From assembly GCA_028716945.1 (NCBI GenBank), contig JAQUOT010000001.1, positions 466,471 to 530,470 of the forward strand: a stretch of 64,000 bases of DNA, written 5' to 3'. The position numbers and the translations under genes were made by a program. The stretch's first letter is position 1. Every line of letters begins with the position of its first letter. The DNA is from Candidatus Nanoarchaeia archaeon (GTDB lineage: Archaea > Nanobdellota > Nanobdellia > SCGC-AAA011-G17 > JAFCDX01). The notes below the pieces were generated by a model that was not told the origin of the DNA, did not search any database, and saw only the letters and a program-made list of their open reading frames with translations. Below, one piece after another: positions 23,022 to 35,240 of this stretch.

Positions 23022-23426
23022 ATGAAATACAAATTTCTAGAACATAAAGCAGATGCTAAGTTTCAAGCATTTGGGAAATCTTTGGAAGAAGCCTTTTCTA
23101 ATGCAGCTCTTGCTATGACTTCTATTATGATATCTCCAGAATTAGTAGAATCTAAGATAACTAAAAAAATTACTGCTTCTGGAAAAGATAAAAAAGCTTT
23201 GTTATATAATTTTCTTGAGCAATTTTTAGTTTTATTAGATATAGAAAGTTTTATTCTTCATGAAGTTAAAAATATAAAAATTACTGGAAATAAACTAACT
23301 GCAGAAGTTGTTGGAGATTTAATAACTGATAAATATTCTTTAAAGAGCGATGTAAAAGCAGTTACTTATAATCACATGGAAATAAAAGAGAAACCTTATA
23401 TTGTTCAGGTTGTTGTGGATATTTAA
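23022..23426 (+). CDS. Archease (RtcB activator)
   Basis: 134 residues: MKYKFLEHKADAKFQAFGKS, EEAFSNAALAMTSIM, LLYNFLEQFLVLLDIESF and a C-terminal KAVTYNHMEIKEKPYIVQVVVDI. The metal-site residues of the family are visible (H-x-AD near the N-terminus, T-x-NHM near the end, terminal Asp). Archease speeds the guanylation cycle of the RNA ligase RtcB. In many genomes archease and rtcB are neighbours; here the MoxR/variable-protein operon lies between them. Confidence 0.95.
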   Translation: MKYKFLEHKADAKFQAFGKSLEEAFSNAALAMTSIMISPELVESKITKKITASGKDKKALLYNFLEQFLVLLDIESFILHEVKNIKITGNKLTAEVVGDLITDKYSLKSDVKAVTYNHMEIKEKPYIVQVVVDI

Positions 23427-28486: not shown

Positions 28487-29371
28487 ATGGCAAAAATAAT
28501 TGGAGATAAAGGAAAAAGTACTTTTGACCCAGATTTAGCTAGAGAAATTAATGAAAAATTTGAAGCTCAGAAAAGAAAACAAGCAATAGAAGAAAAACTA
28601 AATACAAAAAAAGAACCAGAAATTATAACTCCTAATACTCAATTTAATACAGATGATTTTATACAACTAGATATAGATGGATTATATGGAAATAAAGCAT
28701 TAATATCTCCTTATGAATTACAAGGTTTTAATAATTTAAATTATAATAACACTCACGAAAAATTGATAGCTAATGGACTTTACATGCCAACTCCAGAAAT
28801 ATTTATGCATTTTTTTATGAAAATAATAAATGCTTATGATAATAGTTCTAAAGTGTATGATACAAAAGGAAATCAATTATCTACACAGAAAATAACAGAT
28901 ATGTATAAACATTTAACTACCACTTACCTTAATATTTATAATGTGCCTAGTCGTGAAGGAGTATGGACCTGGCTTAATTCTAAATATAAAAAAATAAATA
29001 ATATATTAAACAGGGAGTTAGTTACAGGATTTCATGAGGGTCTATTAATTACAAAAACTGAACCCTTAGGAGCTTTTTTGCAAAATGATTGTTTTGTTGA
29101 TTTAAAATTCAATAAGCAAGGGCTTCCAACACAAAAATCAGTTAATCAAAATTATGAACAAGGGAAAAACATCAAGTTTTATTCTCCAGTAGATGGCTGG
29201 GTTGCTAGGTTCGTCGTTGGCTCTGGTAGGGCTAGCCTCGTCTGTGGCAGGAATCCTGATAACTCGAATCCTGCTCTTGGGGTATTCGGCTGTTGCGAAG
29301 CAACGCCAAAAAATAAATCAAAAATTCAAAAATTAACCCTAGAACAAAGACTTGAATTTTTAAAAGAATGA
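28487..29371 (+). CDS. DGR-type variable protein 5
   Basis: 294 residues: tag IIGDKGKSTFDPDLAREIN, middle GLYMPTPEIFMHFFMKIINA, C-terminal cassette WVARFVVGSGRASLVCGRNP to ALGV, then a divergent extension (FGCCEATPKNKSKIQKLTLE) beyond the usual end. The extension is encoded partly by an 8-bp hairpin. The stop overlaps the start of the vWA gene by 4 nt. Confidence 0.78.
   Translation: MAKIIGDKGKSTFDPDLAREINEKFEAQKRKQAIEEKLNTKKEPEIITPNTQFNTDDFIQLDIDGLYGNKALISPYELQGFNNLNYNNTHEKLIANGLYMPTPEIFMHFFMKIINAYDNSSKVYDTKGNQLSTQKITDMYKHLTTTYLNIYNVPSREGVWTWLNSKYKKINNILNRELVTGFHEGLLITKTEPLGAFLQNDCFVDLKFNKQGLPTQKSVNQNYEQGKNIKFYSPVDGWVARFVVGSGRASLVCGRNPDNSNPALGVFGCCEATPKNKSKIQKLTLEQRLEFLKE
29198..29287 (+). 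repeat. Variable region 5
   Basis: 90 nt in register with the other three for the first 29 codons; codon 30 (TTC) departs from the shared CGT. Codons 6-8 read GTC GTT GGC and codon 24 AAT, again with the third base preserved. Confidence 0.75.
29288..29307 (+). repeat. Hairpin directly after variable region 5
   Basis: GGCTGTTGCGAAGCAACGCC folds into an 8-bp stem (GGC-GTTGC with GCAAC-GCC, one bulged T) and a GAA loop. A GC-rich hairpin a few bases past the variable region is a known DGR target element. Confidence 0.65.
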
Positions 29372-31074
29372 ATCAAGAACTAAATCAACAAGTTGAAAGA
29401 GAAGCAAGAGAACAACTAGATAAAGGAAGATTCCAAGGAACTTTAAAAATTAAAGAAATAAATAAAAAACCAAATTTTGCAGGACAAATTGATGCTAGAC
29501 ATTTGCATGATATTAAAATCGAATATAATCCAGAATTTGAAGAAAAAAATCCAGGAAAAACAGTAAGAGTTGTAAAAGATATAGCAAGACATGAAGTAAA
29601 TCACAATTGCTTTTATGGATTTAATGGATGTCCAAGAACATTAGAAAACCATGTTGAATCAATCTTTGAACCAATTTCAGAGGTTTTATTTGAAAAAGGT
29701 TATACTAAACATGACGTTCATTATATTGCAAATGCATTAGAAGACACAATATTACATGCTGATTTATCTAAAGGATTTTCTCTAGATGGAATAAAAGAAT
29801 TCTTCAAAGACGTAGCAGAGAATATAGAAGGTAAAAAATTCACTCCTTATTTTGAAGCTCATACAAAATTAAATTTATATTTATGGGGAAATAAAAAGCA
29901 AAAGAAAGAATTACAAAAATATTTCACTCATGATAAAAAAGTAAAGGAAGTTTTACAGAATTTCTTAAAAGAAACAGGAATAGCTGATTTAGAAGGAAGA
30001 ATGGAAATGAGAGATTTCCTTAATGATAAAGAAAACTGGAAAAAGATATCTAAAATATATGCAAAAGAATTTTCAAAATTAATGCAGCCAGGATATGCTA
30101 TGCCTATGTTTGATAATTCTGGAGAAGGAACAAAAGGGAAAGAAAAAAGTAAAGAAGATTCAGATGAACCAGAAGGAAATCAATTTGATAGAGAAATGGA
30201 AAGTCCAGAATATCAAGAAGTAAGAGTTAAAAAAGCTTATACTGAAGATAGTGGAGTACCTAAATGGATAGACACTTTCAAAGCTTTAGATTTATTATAT
30301 CAAAATATTGCAAAGAAATTAAAAATAAAAGTAGAAACATTTACACAGCAGTCTTCAATGCCTATTCATCGTTATGGAATAAGATCATTTGATCCTGAAA
30401 AAGATGATTTGAAAAATGTTTCTTTCGGATTTGATGATAAAGGTAAATTAGAATTGAAAAAGAAAAGATATCATGAAGATATACCTTTAAATTATAAAGT
30501 AAATCCAAAAGGTTTTCCAGAAATAAGATTCTGTTTGTTAGATACTTCTGGAAGTATGGCATGGGATACGAACAATGGACACAATGTTGGAAAAACAAGT
30601 GTAATTCCTTGGGGAGACCAAAGCAAATATCATTATGCTTTGCTTGGTTGGTATGGATTATTAGAATATTTAAAACAAAATCATTTATTGAAACAGCAAA
30701 GTATAAACTTGGCTAATTTTAGTTCTCAAACCCATATGAAACAAGGATTAGAAGAATCAAAAAGATTGGCATTGAATCCGCAGTTTGGAGGCACCAAAAT
30801 TGATTTAGATGAAATAAAATATTTATTCAAAAATAAAGGTATGTTAATATTTACCATATCTGATGGAGAAATTGAAAATTGGGATGGAATTAAAAATGAT
30901 TTCATAAAATATGCAAAACAACATTATTATTTCCATTTACAAATTGGTAATGAAAATTCAATTACAAAAGAAATGAAGGAGAATGGTCTTTATGTTGAAT
31001 GTATAAAAAATGCAGAAGACTTATCTACCAAAGTAATTAATCTGACTGATAATTTATACAGGGGTAAGAAATAA
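29368..31074 (+). CDS. vWA-domain protein with N-terminal HExxH metallopeptidase-like region
   Basis: 568 residues. Near residue 72 RHEVNHNCFYGF gives an HExxH motif, with further His residues after it (ENHVESIFEPISEV, ILHADL), as in DUF2201-type vWA proteins. An acidic linker (about 255-280) leads to a C-terminal vWA domain with full MIDAS: FCLLDTSGSMAWD, FGGTKID and ISDGEIENWD. It is the natural partner of the MoxR ATPase at 24483. A zinc peptidase plus vWA protein in an operon with diversified binders suggests a triggered effector or processing step. Confidence 0.85.
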   Translation: MNQELNQQVEREAREQLDKGRFQGTLKIKEINKKPNFAGQIDARHLHDIKIEYNPEFEEKNPGKTVRVVKDIARHEVNHNCFYGFNGCPRTLENHVESIFEPISEVLFEKGYTKHDVHYIANALEDTILHADLSKGFSLDGIKEFFKDVAENIEGKKFTPYFEAHTKLNLYLWGNKKQKKELQKYFTHDKKVKEVLQNFLKETGIADLEGRMEMRDFLNDKENWKKISKIYAKEFSKLMQPGYAMPMFDNSGEGTKGKEKSKEDSDEPEGNQFDREMESPEYQEVRVKKAYTEDSGVPKWIDTFKALDLLYQNIAKKLKIKVETFTQQSSMPIHRYGIRSFDPEKDDLKNVSFGFDDKGKLELKKKRYHEDIPLNYKVNPKGFPEIRFCLLDTSGSMAWDTNNGHNVGKTSVIPWGDQSKYHYALLGWYGLLEYLKQNHLLKQQSINLANFSSQTHMKQGLEESKRLALNPQFGGTKIDLDEIKYLFKNKGMLIFTISDGEIENWDGIKNDFIKYAKQHYYFHLQIGNENSITKEMKENGLYVECIKNAEDLSTKVINLTDNLYRGKK

Positions 31075-31075
31075 A

Positions 31076-31597
31076 ATGGTAAATATAATAGGAGATAAAA
31101 CAGAAAGTAAGTACGATCCTCATCTAGCTGAAAGACTAAACAAAGAAGTAGAAGAAAAAATAAGAAGAGAAAAATTAGAAAAAAAGAAATTAAACAAAGA
31201 AGAAGAAAAGCAAGTGCTAGAAGAAAAAGTAAACCCGCAAGAAAAAAATCCAATAAAAAAACCAAAAATAGAATTAACTCCTTTGGGAATTACAGCAGTT
31301 AATACAAAAACTCAAGAAGAATACCAGATTTTAATGCAGGTTTATGAAATTGGTGGTTGGGGATGGCCTGGTGGAGAATTACCCACTTCTGTAAATCGTT
31401 GGAATGAATATAAACAAGATACTTGTATAGACGCAATGATTTATTCTATGACATCTAGAACATTTCGATATACTTGTACTAGATTTAATCAAGAAAAACT
31501 TTGGAATATTATTTCACCCCAAGAATTTTATGAAAAACAAAATATAACTCCAGAGATGTTAAAAGAAATAGGAGATTATTTTAAAAATAAGAAATAA
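31076..31597 (+). CDS. Tagged paralogue 6 with a different C-terminal domain
   Basis: 173 residues. The first 45 are almost identical to variable proteins 1 and 2 (IIGDKTESKYDPHLAERLN, then a Lys/Glu coil). After a linker with PKIELTPLG comes an unrelated domain (EIGGWGWPGGELPTSVNRWN, then YKQDTCIDAMIYSMTSRTF). No lectin-like end. Same tag on a new domain means the tag, not the lectin fold, defines membership. It starts 1 nt after the vWA stop. Confidence 0.65.
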   Translation: MVNIIGDKTESKYDPHLAERLNKEVEEKIRREKLEKKKLNKEEEKQVLEEKVNPQEKNPIKKPKIELTPLGITAVNTKTQEEYQILMQVYEIGGWGWPGGELPTSVNRWNEYKQDTCIDAMIYSMTSRTFRYTCTRFNQEKLWNIISPQEFYEKQNITPEMLKEIGDYFKNKK

Positions 31598-31598
31598 A

Positions 31599-32348
31599 AT
31601 GGTAGAAATAATAGGAGAACAAAGAAAAAGTACTTTTGACCCAGATTTAGCTAGAGAAATTAATGAAAAAATAGAAAGAAAAGCATTAGAAGAAAGAATA
31701 AAAGCAAAAAAAGAACCACAAGAAAATAATACAAAAACTCAAAATCTTTTAGATTATTGGACTATACCAAATGTTAAATATAAAGATAAAATAGTAAAGA
31801 TAGATTTAGCTAAAGAATTATTAAATGAAGTAAAAAAGGATAGATTTGAAATAGCAGATGCACAATTGCATTATTCAATATTTAAAGCATTATATGATAA
31901 CTCAGATAATCTAGGAACAGAAGAAATAAAGAAATTTTTAAAAGAATCTTTTAGTAGAAAAATTACTACTGCTACAAATATAGAATATAGACTTACTGGA
32001 GATTTAGTAATACATAATTTAATAGAGAATCATTTATCTGATAGATATATAACGAGTACAGAGATTGTAGGTTCAAATGAATATATTAAAGATTCTATTA
32101 CTCCTCAAAAATATAAGGCCATTTTAGGTTCAAATAATTTACAAGAGATAGATGAGGTTTTTAAATGGTTATTTGGTGGAGATATTTTTGCATTTTTTGT
32201 TAATGATAATCTAGGTATGCAAAAAAGTTTTATAAGAAATGTTAAATTTTCGGTAGATAGTGGAGGAATTAATCTTATTTGTACAGGAAATCTTGATAAT
32301 GAATGTCGTGCTTTAGGTATGTGTTATTCTCATGAAAATAATTTATAA
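31599..32348 (+). CDS. Tagged paralogue 7, lectin-like, without a GC-rich variable region
   Basis: 249 residues: tag IIGEQRKSTFDPDLAREIN, helical middle (IADAQLHYSIFKALYDN), end SFIRNVKFSVDSGGINLICT to RALGMCYSHENN. The last part follows the lectin-cassette pattern (RNVKFSVDSGGINLICTGN versus RVARFGASSGGAILYCGRN) but in AT-rich codons, so it is an older or fixed relative. Last gene of the operon; rtcB follows after 48 nt. Confidence 0.65.
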   Translation: MVEIIGEQRKSTFDPDLAREINEKIERKALEERIKAKKEPQENNTKTQNLLDYWTIPNVKYKDKIVKIDLAKELLNEVKKDRFEIADAQLHYSIFKALYDNSDNLGTEEIKKFLKESFSRKITTATNIEYRLTGDLVIHNLIENHLSDRYITSTEIVGSNEYIKDSITPQKYKAILGSNNLQEIDEVFKWLFGGDIFAFFVNDNLGMQKSFIRNVKFSVDSGGINLICTGNLDNECRALGMCYSHENNL

Positions 32349-32396: not shown

Positions 32397-35240
32397 ATGG
32401 ATACAAGACTAAAAAAGATATCAGAATATGAATGGGGGATTGAAAAAACAGGCAAAATGCTTGTTCCAGGTAAAATATTTGCTTCTAAGAAATTAGTTGA
32501 AGCAATAGAGCCTGAAGCAATCCAACAATTAGCAAACGTTGCAACATTAAAAGGGATCCAAAAGAGTGCTCTGGCAATGCCAGATATACATTCAGGATTG
32601 TTATTAAGTTAGATCTTATAACCCTGAGATGGTTTCCCTATAGGTGGAGTTGCAGCTTTTGATCTAAAAGAAGGTATAATCTCGCCTGGTGGCGTTGGAT
32701 ATGATATTAATTGTTTAACCGAAGATTCCAATATTTTAGGAGAATTTGGTACTTTTAAAGAAATAAAAGATTTTCAAGAGGATTTTATAGAAATTGATTC
32801 CGGTAAAGATTTAATTTTAAAAAAGAAAATTTTCTTGAATAGGTTGACTACTCTCAACATAAAATCTAAGAGATTAGAAGATAAAGAAATAGAATTTTTT
32901 ATGGTAAAAGATAAAGATAATATTTTTGAAATGCAAACAGAATGTAATTTTAATATAAAATCTACTAAAAATCATCCTTTCTTAACAAAAAAAGGAATGA
33001 TCTTACTAAAAGATTTAGAAAAAAATAAAGAAATTGCAATAAATACTTTTAAAGGAGTTAATTATAATCAAAGGATAGATAGGAAAAAAGCTATTTTATC
33101 TAAATTATTTGGATATTTATTAGGCGATGGCTATGTAAATATTTCTAAAAATAAAGGATATATCTCTTTTTATGGACAAAAAGAAGATTTAGAAGAGATA
33201 CAAAAAGATTTGAAAGGATTGGGTTTTAATTCTAATTTAATTTCAAGAGAAAGAAATCATAAAATTAATACAAAATATGGAATTAAAGAATTTAGCGCTA
33301 AGAATTATGAATTATATAATCGATCTAAGGAATTTGCATTTTTATTAAAAGAATTAGGTATGCAACTTGGAAATAAAACAAATCAGAAATTTTTACTTCC
33401 AGATTGGATAATGAATGGAGAAATTTATGTAAAAAGATTGTTTTTGGCAGGATTTTTCGGGGCAGAATTAAGTTCTCCAAGCACTCACACAAAAACAGGA
33501 TTTTATTCTCCTATTTTATCACAAAATAAGAATACTAAATTGAAAAATAATGCAAGAGAATTTTTATTGCAAATAACAAAATTACTAGAAGAATTTGGTG
33601 TTAAAGTTAATAAAATAAGTGAAGATAAAGAATTAGTTAATTTAAGGTTTAGATTAATTATTTCTGCTCAAGAAGATAATTTATTAAATTTATATCAAAA
33701 AATAGGTTATGAATATAATAAAAAAAGAAAAAGATTAGCAGATATAGCCTGTCTGTACATCTTAAAGAAAAAACAAATACAAAAAGAAAGAAGTGAAATT
33801 GCTAATAAAATAAAAGAATATAAGATGAAAGGATTCAAACTTAAAGAATTATATTCTAACTTTTCAGGTAAAGTAAATAAAAGATTTATTGAAAGGCATT
33901 ATTATGAAAAGTGTAATCAAAGAATAAATTTAGATTTCATCTCTTTTGAAGAGTTTAAGAGATTAAAATTAAAAGAATATGAAAAATATGGTTGCATTTT
34001 TGATACTATCAAATCAATTGTTAAATTAAATAAACAAGAGAAGGTATATGATTTTACTGTTAAAGATAATCATAACTTTATTGCAAACAATTTTATAGTT
34101 TCTAATTGTGGAGTAAGAATTTTATCTACTAGTGTTTCTGTAAAAGAATTTCTTAAAAAAAGAGAGCAATTAATTGAAGAAGTTTACAAAAATGTTCCTT
34201 CGGGTTTAGGTAGTAAAGGAAGAATTAAAGTTACTAAAGATTTGTTAATGGAAGTTTTAAAAAAAGGAACAAAATGGGCAGTTGAATCTGGATATGGAAT
34301 TAAAGAAGATATACAAAGAACAGAAGAATATGGTTGCATGCCAAAAGCAGATCCAAGTGTAATTTCAGATACTGCATTAAAAAGAGGAATGCCACAATTA
34401 GGTTCGTTAGGTTCAGGAAATCATTTCTTAGAAGTTCAGCAAGTTGATAATATATTTGATGAAAAAATAGCAAAAGCATTCGGAATTAACAAAGAAAATG
34501 TTACTGTAATGATTCATTGTGGTTCAAGAGGTTTAGGACATCAAGTTGCTAGCGATTATATTAAATTAATGGAAGATAAATTTGGTTTTAAAGATTTAGC
34601 AGATAGAGAATTAATAAATGCTCCAATAAATTCTGATTTGGGTCAGAAGTATTATGGTGCTATGAGTGCAGCAGTAAATTTTGCTTTTGCAAACAGACAA
34701 ATGATAATGCATTGGGTTAGAGATTCTTTTAAAAATGTTTTTGGTGATGTAAAAATTGATTTAATTTATGATGTTGCTCATAACGTGGCTAAAATGGAAA
34801 AACATAAAATTGATAATAAAATAAAAGAAGTTTGTCTGCATAGAAAAGGTGCAACAAGATCTTTTGGTCCTGGAAATGAAAGTTTACCTGAAGTTTATCA
34901 AAAAACAGGAGTGCCGGTATTGATTCCGGGGTCGATGGGAACTTCTTCATATATAATGGTGGGAACAAAAAAAGCAGAAGAAATTTCATTTGGAAGTACT
35001 GCTCATGGTGCTGGAAGAATAATGTCAAGACATTCTGCATTAAAACAATTTAGGGGAGAAACCATTAAAAAAGAATTACATGAAAGAGGAATAGAAGTAA
35101 AATCAGGTTCTTATGCTGGATTAGCTGAAGAAGCACCGGGCGTGTATAAAGATATTGAGTCGGTTATAGAAGTTTCTCATAATGTGGGTTTAGCAAGTAA
35201 AGTAGCAAAAGTTGTTCCTTTATGTGTTATTAAAGGTTAA
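32397..35240 (+). CDS. rtcB: RNA-splicing ligase RtcB, interrupted by a BHB intron and an intein
   Basis: The reading frame breaks at 32610-32612 (TAG) shortly after MPDIHSG. Removing 32599-32628 joins 32598 to 32629, restores the invariant MPDIHSGYGFPIGGVAAFD and continues to 35240. Predicted precursor 937 aa; after removal of the 465-aa intein, 472 aa, normal for RtcB. Conserved parts: GYDIN/CGVRIL (metal-binding Cys), IHCGSRGLGHQ, CLHRKGATRSFGPGNE, PGSMGTSSYIM and STAHGAGRIMSR (guanylated His). RtcB joins 2',3'-cyclic phosphate and 5'-OH ends, the very ends produced by BHB cutting, so this mRNA needs its own product. Confidence 0.88.
32599..32628 (+). other. BHB-type pre-mRNA intron in rtcB (30 nt)
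   Basis: Inner helix GTTAT(T)AAG with CTTATAAC (32600-32608 with 32615-32622); 5' bulge ATT (32597-32599) cut after the second base; central helix CAGG/CCTG (32593-32596 with 32623-32626, extendable by one T-A pair); 3' bulge AGA (32627-32629) cut after the second base. The cut sites predicted from structure are exactly those needed to rebuild the Tyr codon. Confidence 0.85.
32712..34106 (+). other. Intein in RtcB with LAGLIDADG endonuclease domain
   Basis: 465 codons between GYDIN and CGVRIL. N-terminal block CLTEDSNILGEFGTF (Cys1), block B STKNHPFLT, endonuclease motifs LFGYLLGDGYVN and LFLAGFFGAELSS (second acid as Glu), C-terminal blocks VYDFTVKDNHNFIANNF and IVSN before Cys+1. The penultimate residue is Ser instead of the usual His. 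It sits directly before the catalytic metal-binding cysteine. Confidence 0.92.

Follow-up and report, generated by a model that had tools for sequence, protein, structure and literature searches.

In the archaeal splicing pathway, EndA cuts leave 2',3'-cyclic phosphate and 5'-OH ends, and RtcB joins them. Within a bulge-helix-bulge (BHB) fold, EndA cuts between the second and third bases of the bulge (PMC2738675). In the literature that we searched, the single documented case of a BHB intron in a protein gene is that of cbf5 in the Crenarchaeota (Desulfurococcales and Sulfolobales), where removal of the pre-mRNA intron has been verified by cDNA in several species (PMC2738675). A homologue of RtcB also joins the exons of XBP1 (PMC10630183). 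Here we describe an rtcB gene that appears to need this pathway for its own expression. With very high probability, the 30-nt insert in the gene is a BHB pre-mRNA intron that would be cut by EndA and joined by RtcB, after which an intein encoded in the same gene would splice itself out of the protein.

A predicted BHB intron in rtcB

The window, which is the whole 64,000-nt stretch of DNA that was analysed, belongs to the genome of a DPANN-type archaeon (0.80 Mb, a draft of two contigs, 97.6% complete), in which a profile search found one copy of rtcB. The gene comprises the following features.

32397..32598, + strand: rtcB exon 1, from the ATG to MPDIHSG and the first base of the Tyr codon
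32593..32596, + strand: exon side (CAGG) of the 4-bp central helix of the predicted BHB, pairing with CCTG at 32623-32626
32597..32599, + strand: 5' bulge ATT, with a predicted cut AT:T between its second and third bases (rule from PMC2738675)
32599..32628, + strand: predicted BHB intron, 30 nt, with in-frame TAG, TAA and TGA; the unique register that restores GYGFPIGG
32600..32622, + strand: predicted intron hairpin with inner helix GTTAT/ATAAC, from the fold
32627..32629, + strand: 3' bulge AGA, with a predicted cut AG:A between its second and third bases, from the register
32629..32711, + strand: exon 2, N-terminal part preceding the intein, YGFPIGGVAAFDLKEGIISPGGVGYDIN, from translation and alignment
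32712..34106, + strand: intein of 465 aa with a LAGLIDADG endonuclease domain (PF14890, E 2.3e-19; PF14528, E 2.8e-8)
34107..35240, + strand: C-terminal part of rtcB, CGVRIL ... VIKG and the stop codon, from translation and alignment

The frame of exon 1 is stopped by an in-frame TAG within the insert, and positions 1-50 of the PF01139 profile match across the break. We tried all deletions of 24-36 nt around the break, and the motif MPDIHSGYGFPIGGVAAFD was restored solely by removing 32599-32628, so that the insert is exactly this segment, TGTTATTAAGTTAGATCTTATAACCCTGAG. A sequence-only reading of the same DNA had placed the break after MPDIHSG and the insert at these positions, and its coordinates proved exact. 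The restored protein reads MPDIHSG-Y-GFPIGG across the joint, which lies within the Tyr codon. Without the intron and the intein, RtcB aligns end to end with RtcB of Pyrococcus horikoshii (PDB 1uc2; E 5e-169), and both the intron joint and the intein joint are free of gaps.

The register that restores the motif coincides with the canonical arrangement of a 3-nt bulge, a 4-bp helix and a second 3-nt bulge. Four central and three inner pairs would arise at a random place with a chance of about 0.003. The window thus has what is expected of an EndA substrate, namely two 3-nt bulges around a 4-bp helix, with cuts that would give a functional joint. The outer exon-exon helix is weak, and the BHB is relaxed on that side: in the strict register, positions 32592 and 32630 form a T-T mismatch, and the minimum free energy fold instead pairs CAU with AUG, leaving a 1-nt bulge. 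Many relatives have two pairs in this helix. Folding energy taken alone is unremarkable (z = -0.74 over 91 nt and -1.6 over 51 nt), and since the outer helix is also weak, the case for the intron rests on the register and on comparison with relatives. A group I intron was also considered and is ruled out by size, the insert having 30 nt against the some hundred nucleotides of a catalytic core.

Elsewhere in the window, the ORF at 29368-31074 carries the motif LLDTSGSMAWD, a VWA-like metal-binding signature, and has no Pfam match. It is followed by ORFs at 31076-31597 and 31599-32348, the starts of which resemble each other (MVxIIGxxxxSxxDPxLAxxxN).

An intein close to the intron

The intein lies 28 codons downstream of the predicted intron, directly before the metal-binding active-site Cys. 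This residue corresponds to Cys98 of P. horikoshii RtcB, which together with Asp95 binds Mn ions (PMC10630183). The sequence-only reading did not mention the intein (32712-34106), although it lies inside the gene segment that the reading covered. The hallmarks of an intein are present, with Cys at both extein borders, a C-terminal Asn and the splicing domain PF14890 (C-LTEDS...FIVSN-C). The rtcB gene of the window therefore carries both an intron and an intein, and both RNA splicing and protein splicing would be needed for its expression. Across the rtcB genes that we read, inteins occur at GYGF/C, DIN/C and MFH/C (including loci L057 and L037), and two of these sites are a few codons from intron sites. 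In the rtcB gene of one relative (G094, locus L055), only a few codons separate a BHB intron of 27 nt from an intein.

Homologous introns in relatives

The family search covered 99 relatives and turned up many rtcB genes interrupted at two shared sites; 93 genomes of the window's order bear rtcB. At least one rtcB intron was found in 20 of these 93. Under a strict DNA pattern, interruptions at the position occupied in the window, site A, came from 14 genomes out of 371 in the phylum and from 29 loci among 84,980 genomes of the GTDB collection; all such counts are lower bounds, as the patterns demanded conserved flanking codons. All 29 loci are archaeal and 28 have DPANN titles (19 Woesearchaeota, 3 Nanoarchaeota, 3 Aenigmatarchaeota and 3 Micrarchaeota), the one remaining locus being titled 'Euryarchaeota'. 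Among the 84,980 genomes there were no bacterial matches to the site-A intron pattern, and none was found in the viral contigs searched with the intron pattern.

The 32 distinct site-A introns occupy the same codon position and are 26-33 nt long, with 9, 13 and 10 of them in the three classes of length modulo 3. Read in one fixed register, these introns form 122 of the 128 possible central pairs and 177 of the 192 inner ones, whereas 2000 shuffles of the partners gave at most 115 central and 142 inner pairs. All four central pairs formed in 28 of the 32 introns, and four central plus three inner pairs in 27, against 0.3% at random places. The pair types of the inner stem varied across the introns (CG, TA, GC and AT), and two Aenigmatarchaeota introns, so read, had just 2 of 4 central pairs. 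The stems thus covary strongly among independent sequences, a signal that needs no one molecule to fold well. The claim of the sequence-only reading that the insert is a BHB intron has strong support, from the register, from 32 distinct homologous and covarying introns, from EndA and archease in the genome, and from alleles in relatives that lack the intron.

Introns occupy about eight positions in rtcB, every one of them within two active-site motifs, where inteins are found as well. In motif A (DxHxGYGFPIG), most introns follow the first base of the Tyr codon, and others lie inside the Trp codon or after His; one Aenigmatarchaeon has its intron another two bases along. In motif B (PGGxG[YF]DINC), they follow the first base of Tyr, lie near or after Asp, or fall inside the Asn codon. 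Many rtcB genes have one intron in each motif, and the target of both main positions is GGAT^AY. Whole clades retain introns of about 31 nt.

A tree built from 62 RtcB rows calls for at least 12 state changes at site A and at least 12 at site B. The tree does not separate gain from loss, and it is the diversity of positions that requires several gains. One relative, whose RtcB is 80% identical to that of the window over 376 columns (G003, locus L033), has an intron at site B and none at site A. Intron-less alleles, which the sequence-only reading had proposed to look for, do exist in close relatives, as in a genome of the window's own family whose RtcB is 78% identical (G001, locus L021), indicating that the intron is dispensable.

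Interrupted alba and rnhB genes

We compared three whole genomes, namely that of the window, one with an intron-less rtcB (G008) and one with two rtcB introns (G033), with about 430-490 homologous ORFs per pair. Convincing cases of a gene split by a BHB intron came from all three: the window genome has them in rtcB and alba, G033 in alba and at two places in rtcB, and G008 in rnhB, which encodes RNase HII. There was thus no general intron load, the three comparisons giving only rtcB, alba and rnhB, although this approach would overlook an intron in a poorly conserved gene or very close to the end of any gene. The suggestion that BHB introns are rare in archaeal protein genes needs revision for the DPANN archaea, which are tiny and symbiont-like and in which such introns recur in these three genes.

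The alba gene of the window genome (C1:392683-393012, outside the window) has a 30-nt intron at C1:392751-392780, within FM[N]YV, and its BHB has a CATG/CATG central helix and an inner helix of 9 bp. An alba intron recurs at nearly the same codon, in two phases, in 18 of the relatives that were read, and 9 of these have all four central pairs. The rnhB intron, of 21-32 nt, lies inside the active-site motif DEAG[R]G and was found in 8 genomes of the order in all.

alba introns in relatives: L192, L195-L207, L209-L211, L265
rnhB introns: G008 C1 about 548030-548095, - strand; also L255-L259, L261, L262

In one genome (G018, locus L194), the alba insert is longer, with about 60 nt in place of 30. 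As controls, SecY was unbroken in all 59 genomes, one fragment at a contig end aside, and RadA was broken in 1 of 58 (G050). The break in that radA gene (locus L264) was rejected as an intron, being a plain frameshift that lacks an insert, and is probably a sequencing or assembly error. Together with crenarchaeal cbf5, the genes rtcB, alba and rnhB all encode RNA-acting proteins; with four genes, this may be due to chance.

Splicing machinery and probable dependence of RtcB on itself

The window genome encodes EndA (PF01974, E 2.4e-30), and the window itself contains the gene for the RtcB activating factor.

23028..23423, + strand (G000:C1:489498-489893): archease (PF01951, E 5.9e-36)

The sequence-only reading held that only RtcB-type ligation could repair the transcript. 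That is a reasonable inference, given one rtcB gene and no match to ATP-dependent RNA ligase (PF09414) in the window genome. The genome does encode two 2H/LigT-type proteins. Relatives of such proteins can make 2'-5' joins in vitro. With ARAGORN set to accept introns of 8-120 nt, 20 loci among the tRNA genes of the genome have candidate introns, some of them doubtful calls; its bacterial mode overlooks intron-bearing tRNAs.

Splicing of rtcB by EndA and RtcB is almost certain from what the sequences indicate. The transcript would fold into the BHB, EndA would cut it after 32598 and after 32628, and pre-existing RtcB would join the exons, the excised 30-mer probably being circularised by RtcB as well. 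The spliced mRNA would then be translated and the intein would excise itself, giving active RtcB. For 37 of 37 distinct rtcB introns examined, including all 9 with a length that is a multiple of 3, retention would let translation run no more than 60 codons before a stop, and RtcB synthesis should therefore depend on RtcB already present. The cutting and the joining themselves are what we infer, and with them this need for existing RtcB.

Other explanations of the insert were weighed against splicing. In translational bypass, known from gene 60 of phage T4, ribosomes would skip the insert with no RNA being removed, and the stops and the hairpin within the insert are features that a bypassed segment may have. 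Yet there is no common pair of take-off and landing codons, the joint falling within the Tyr codon in the window and within Trp or Asn codons, after His or after Asp in relatives; joint phases and lengths vary, with no fixed gap; and what is conserved is the geometry of an EndA substrate, with covarying exon-intron pairing, in a genome that encodes EndA. We therefore consider bypass very improbable. Still harder to credit is a dead rtcB, whether a pseudogene or an assembly error. The window genome is indeed a two-contig draft, but dozens of independent genomes are interrupted at the same site by introns of differing sequence, the gene is the sole rtcB with its remainder intact and conserved, and a decayed or misassembled genome does not readily explain why three whole-genome comparisons found just rtcB, alba and rnhB so interrupted.

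A further proposal, compatible with splicing by EndA and RtcB rather than exclusive of it, is that selection maintains the intron for regulation: as splicing needs RtcB, the gene would form a positive, all-or-none feedback and so sense how much ligase capacity is free. The sequence-only reading had likewise raised a possible feedback or start-up problem. The universal stop upon retention, the persistence of these introns through whole clades, and the turnover of position while presence recurs (site A in the window, site B in its relative G003) are consistent with such a device. It seems unlikely to us all the same, as most genomes of the order have no intron, including the close relative G001 of the same family, similar introns occur in alba and rnhB, neither of which is known to take part in ligation, and the inteins in the same motifs point to a preference for insertion sites. 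We are slightly more doubtful of a bolder version, in which many DPANN archaea make their RNA ligase solely by means of its own activity: an intron-bearing rtcB would be autocatalytic, with its expression state inherited via the cytoplasm, would act as a selected all-or-none switch that responds to free ligase capacity, and could not be started in a cell lacking RtcB and EndA. The inserts might also be worn-down remnants of larger mobile introns that formerly carried homing endonucleases; the targeting of the most conserved codons, in motifs that also hold LAGLIDADG inteins, is what homing elements would produce. We doubt this about as much as we doubt a regulatory device, for the BHB introns identified in rtcB, alba and rnhB were all of about 34 nt or less, save the longer alba insert described above, and repeated small gains would account at least equally well for about eight positions in two motifs. 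In our view, such introns arise repeatedly as nearly neutral insertions into the active-site codons of a few genes whose products act on RNA. That RtcB depends on itself would in this case be a side effect that the cell tolerates and not a selected switch, a preference that we base on the patchiness of the introns and on the parallel introns in alba and rnhB.

Comparison with known systems

In the literature that we searched, with many subscription papers and preprints outside it, BHB introns in rtcB, alba or rnhB are not described, which is no proof of novelty. By its features the rtcB insert is a BHB pre-mRNA intron; its novelty would lie in the gene that hosts it, in the lineage, in the repeated positions and in the resulting self-dependence. 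BHB introns recur over several DPANN groups and are concentrated in the most conserved codons of the three genes, and their many independent positions provide a natural experiment on intron gain in Archaea. A gene for the exon ligase that itself needs exon ligation poses a testable puzzle with respect to start-up, inheritance and transfer of rtcB. In practical terms, gene callers can be expected to split or truncate the RtcB, Alba and RNase HII of such genomes, and heterologous expression of these genes from genomic DNA should fail.

The cbf5 intron resembles that of rtcB in being a BHB intron in the gene of an RNA-acting enzyme, with the same cut rule and a patchy presence, which in cbf5 involves losses. 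It differs in having one position, probably a single origin, a distribution over two crenarchaeal orders and mostly unconventional BHBs, whereas the rtcB introns lie in the gene of the ligase itself, have a mostly canonical BHB, extend over several DPANN phyla at about eight positions with repeated changes, and are known from sequence. The BHB introns of archaeal tRNA and rRNA, processed by the EndA/RtcB pathway, share the motif, the presumed enzymes and the size range; the host of the rtcB intron, in contrast, is the mRNA for the pathway's own ligase, and the exon side of its helix must also serve as active-site codons. Inteins at the active-site Cys of RtcB are found in the same gene and in the same conserved motifs, but are elements of about 465 aa with an endonuclease that act at the protein level, unlike an intron of 30 nt that would be removed as RNA. 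The unconventional splicing of XBP1 and HAC1 likewise removes a short intron from an mRNA; there, the cuts are made by IRE1 and not by EndA, and the product is a transcription factor and not a ligase.
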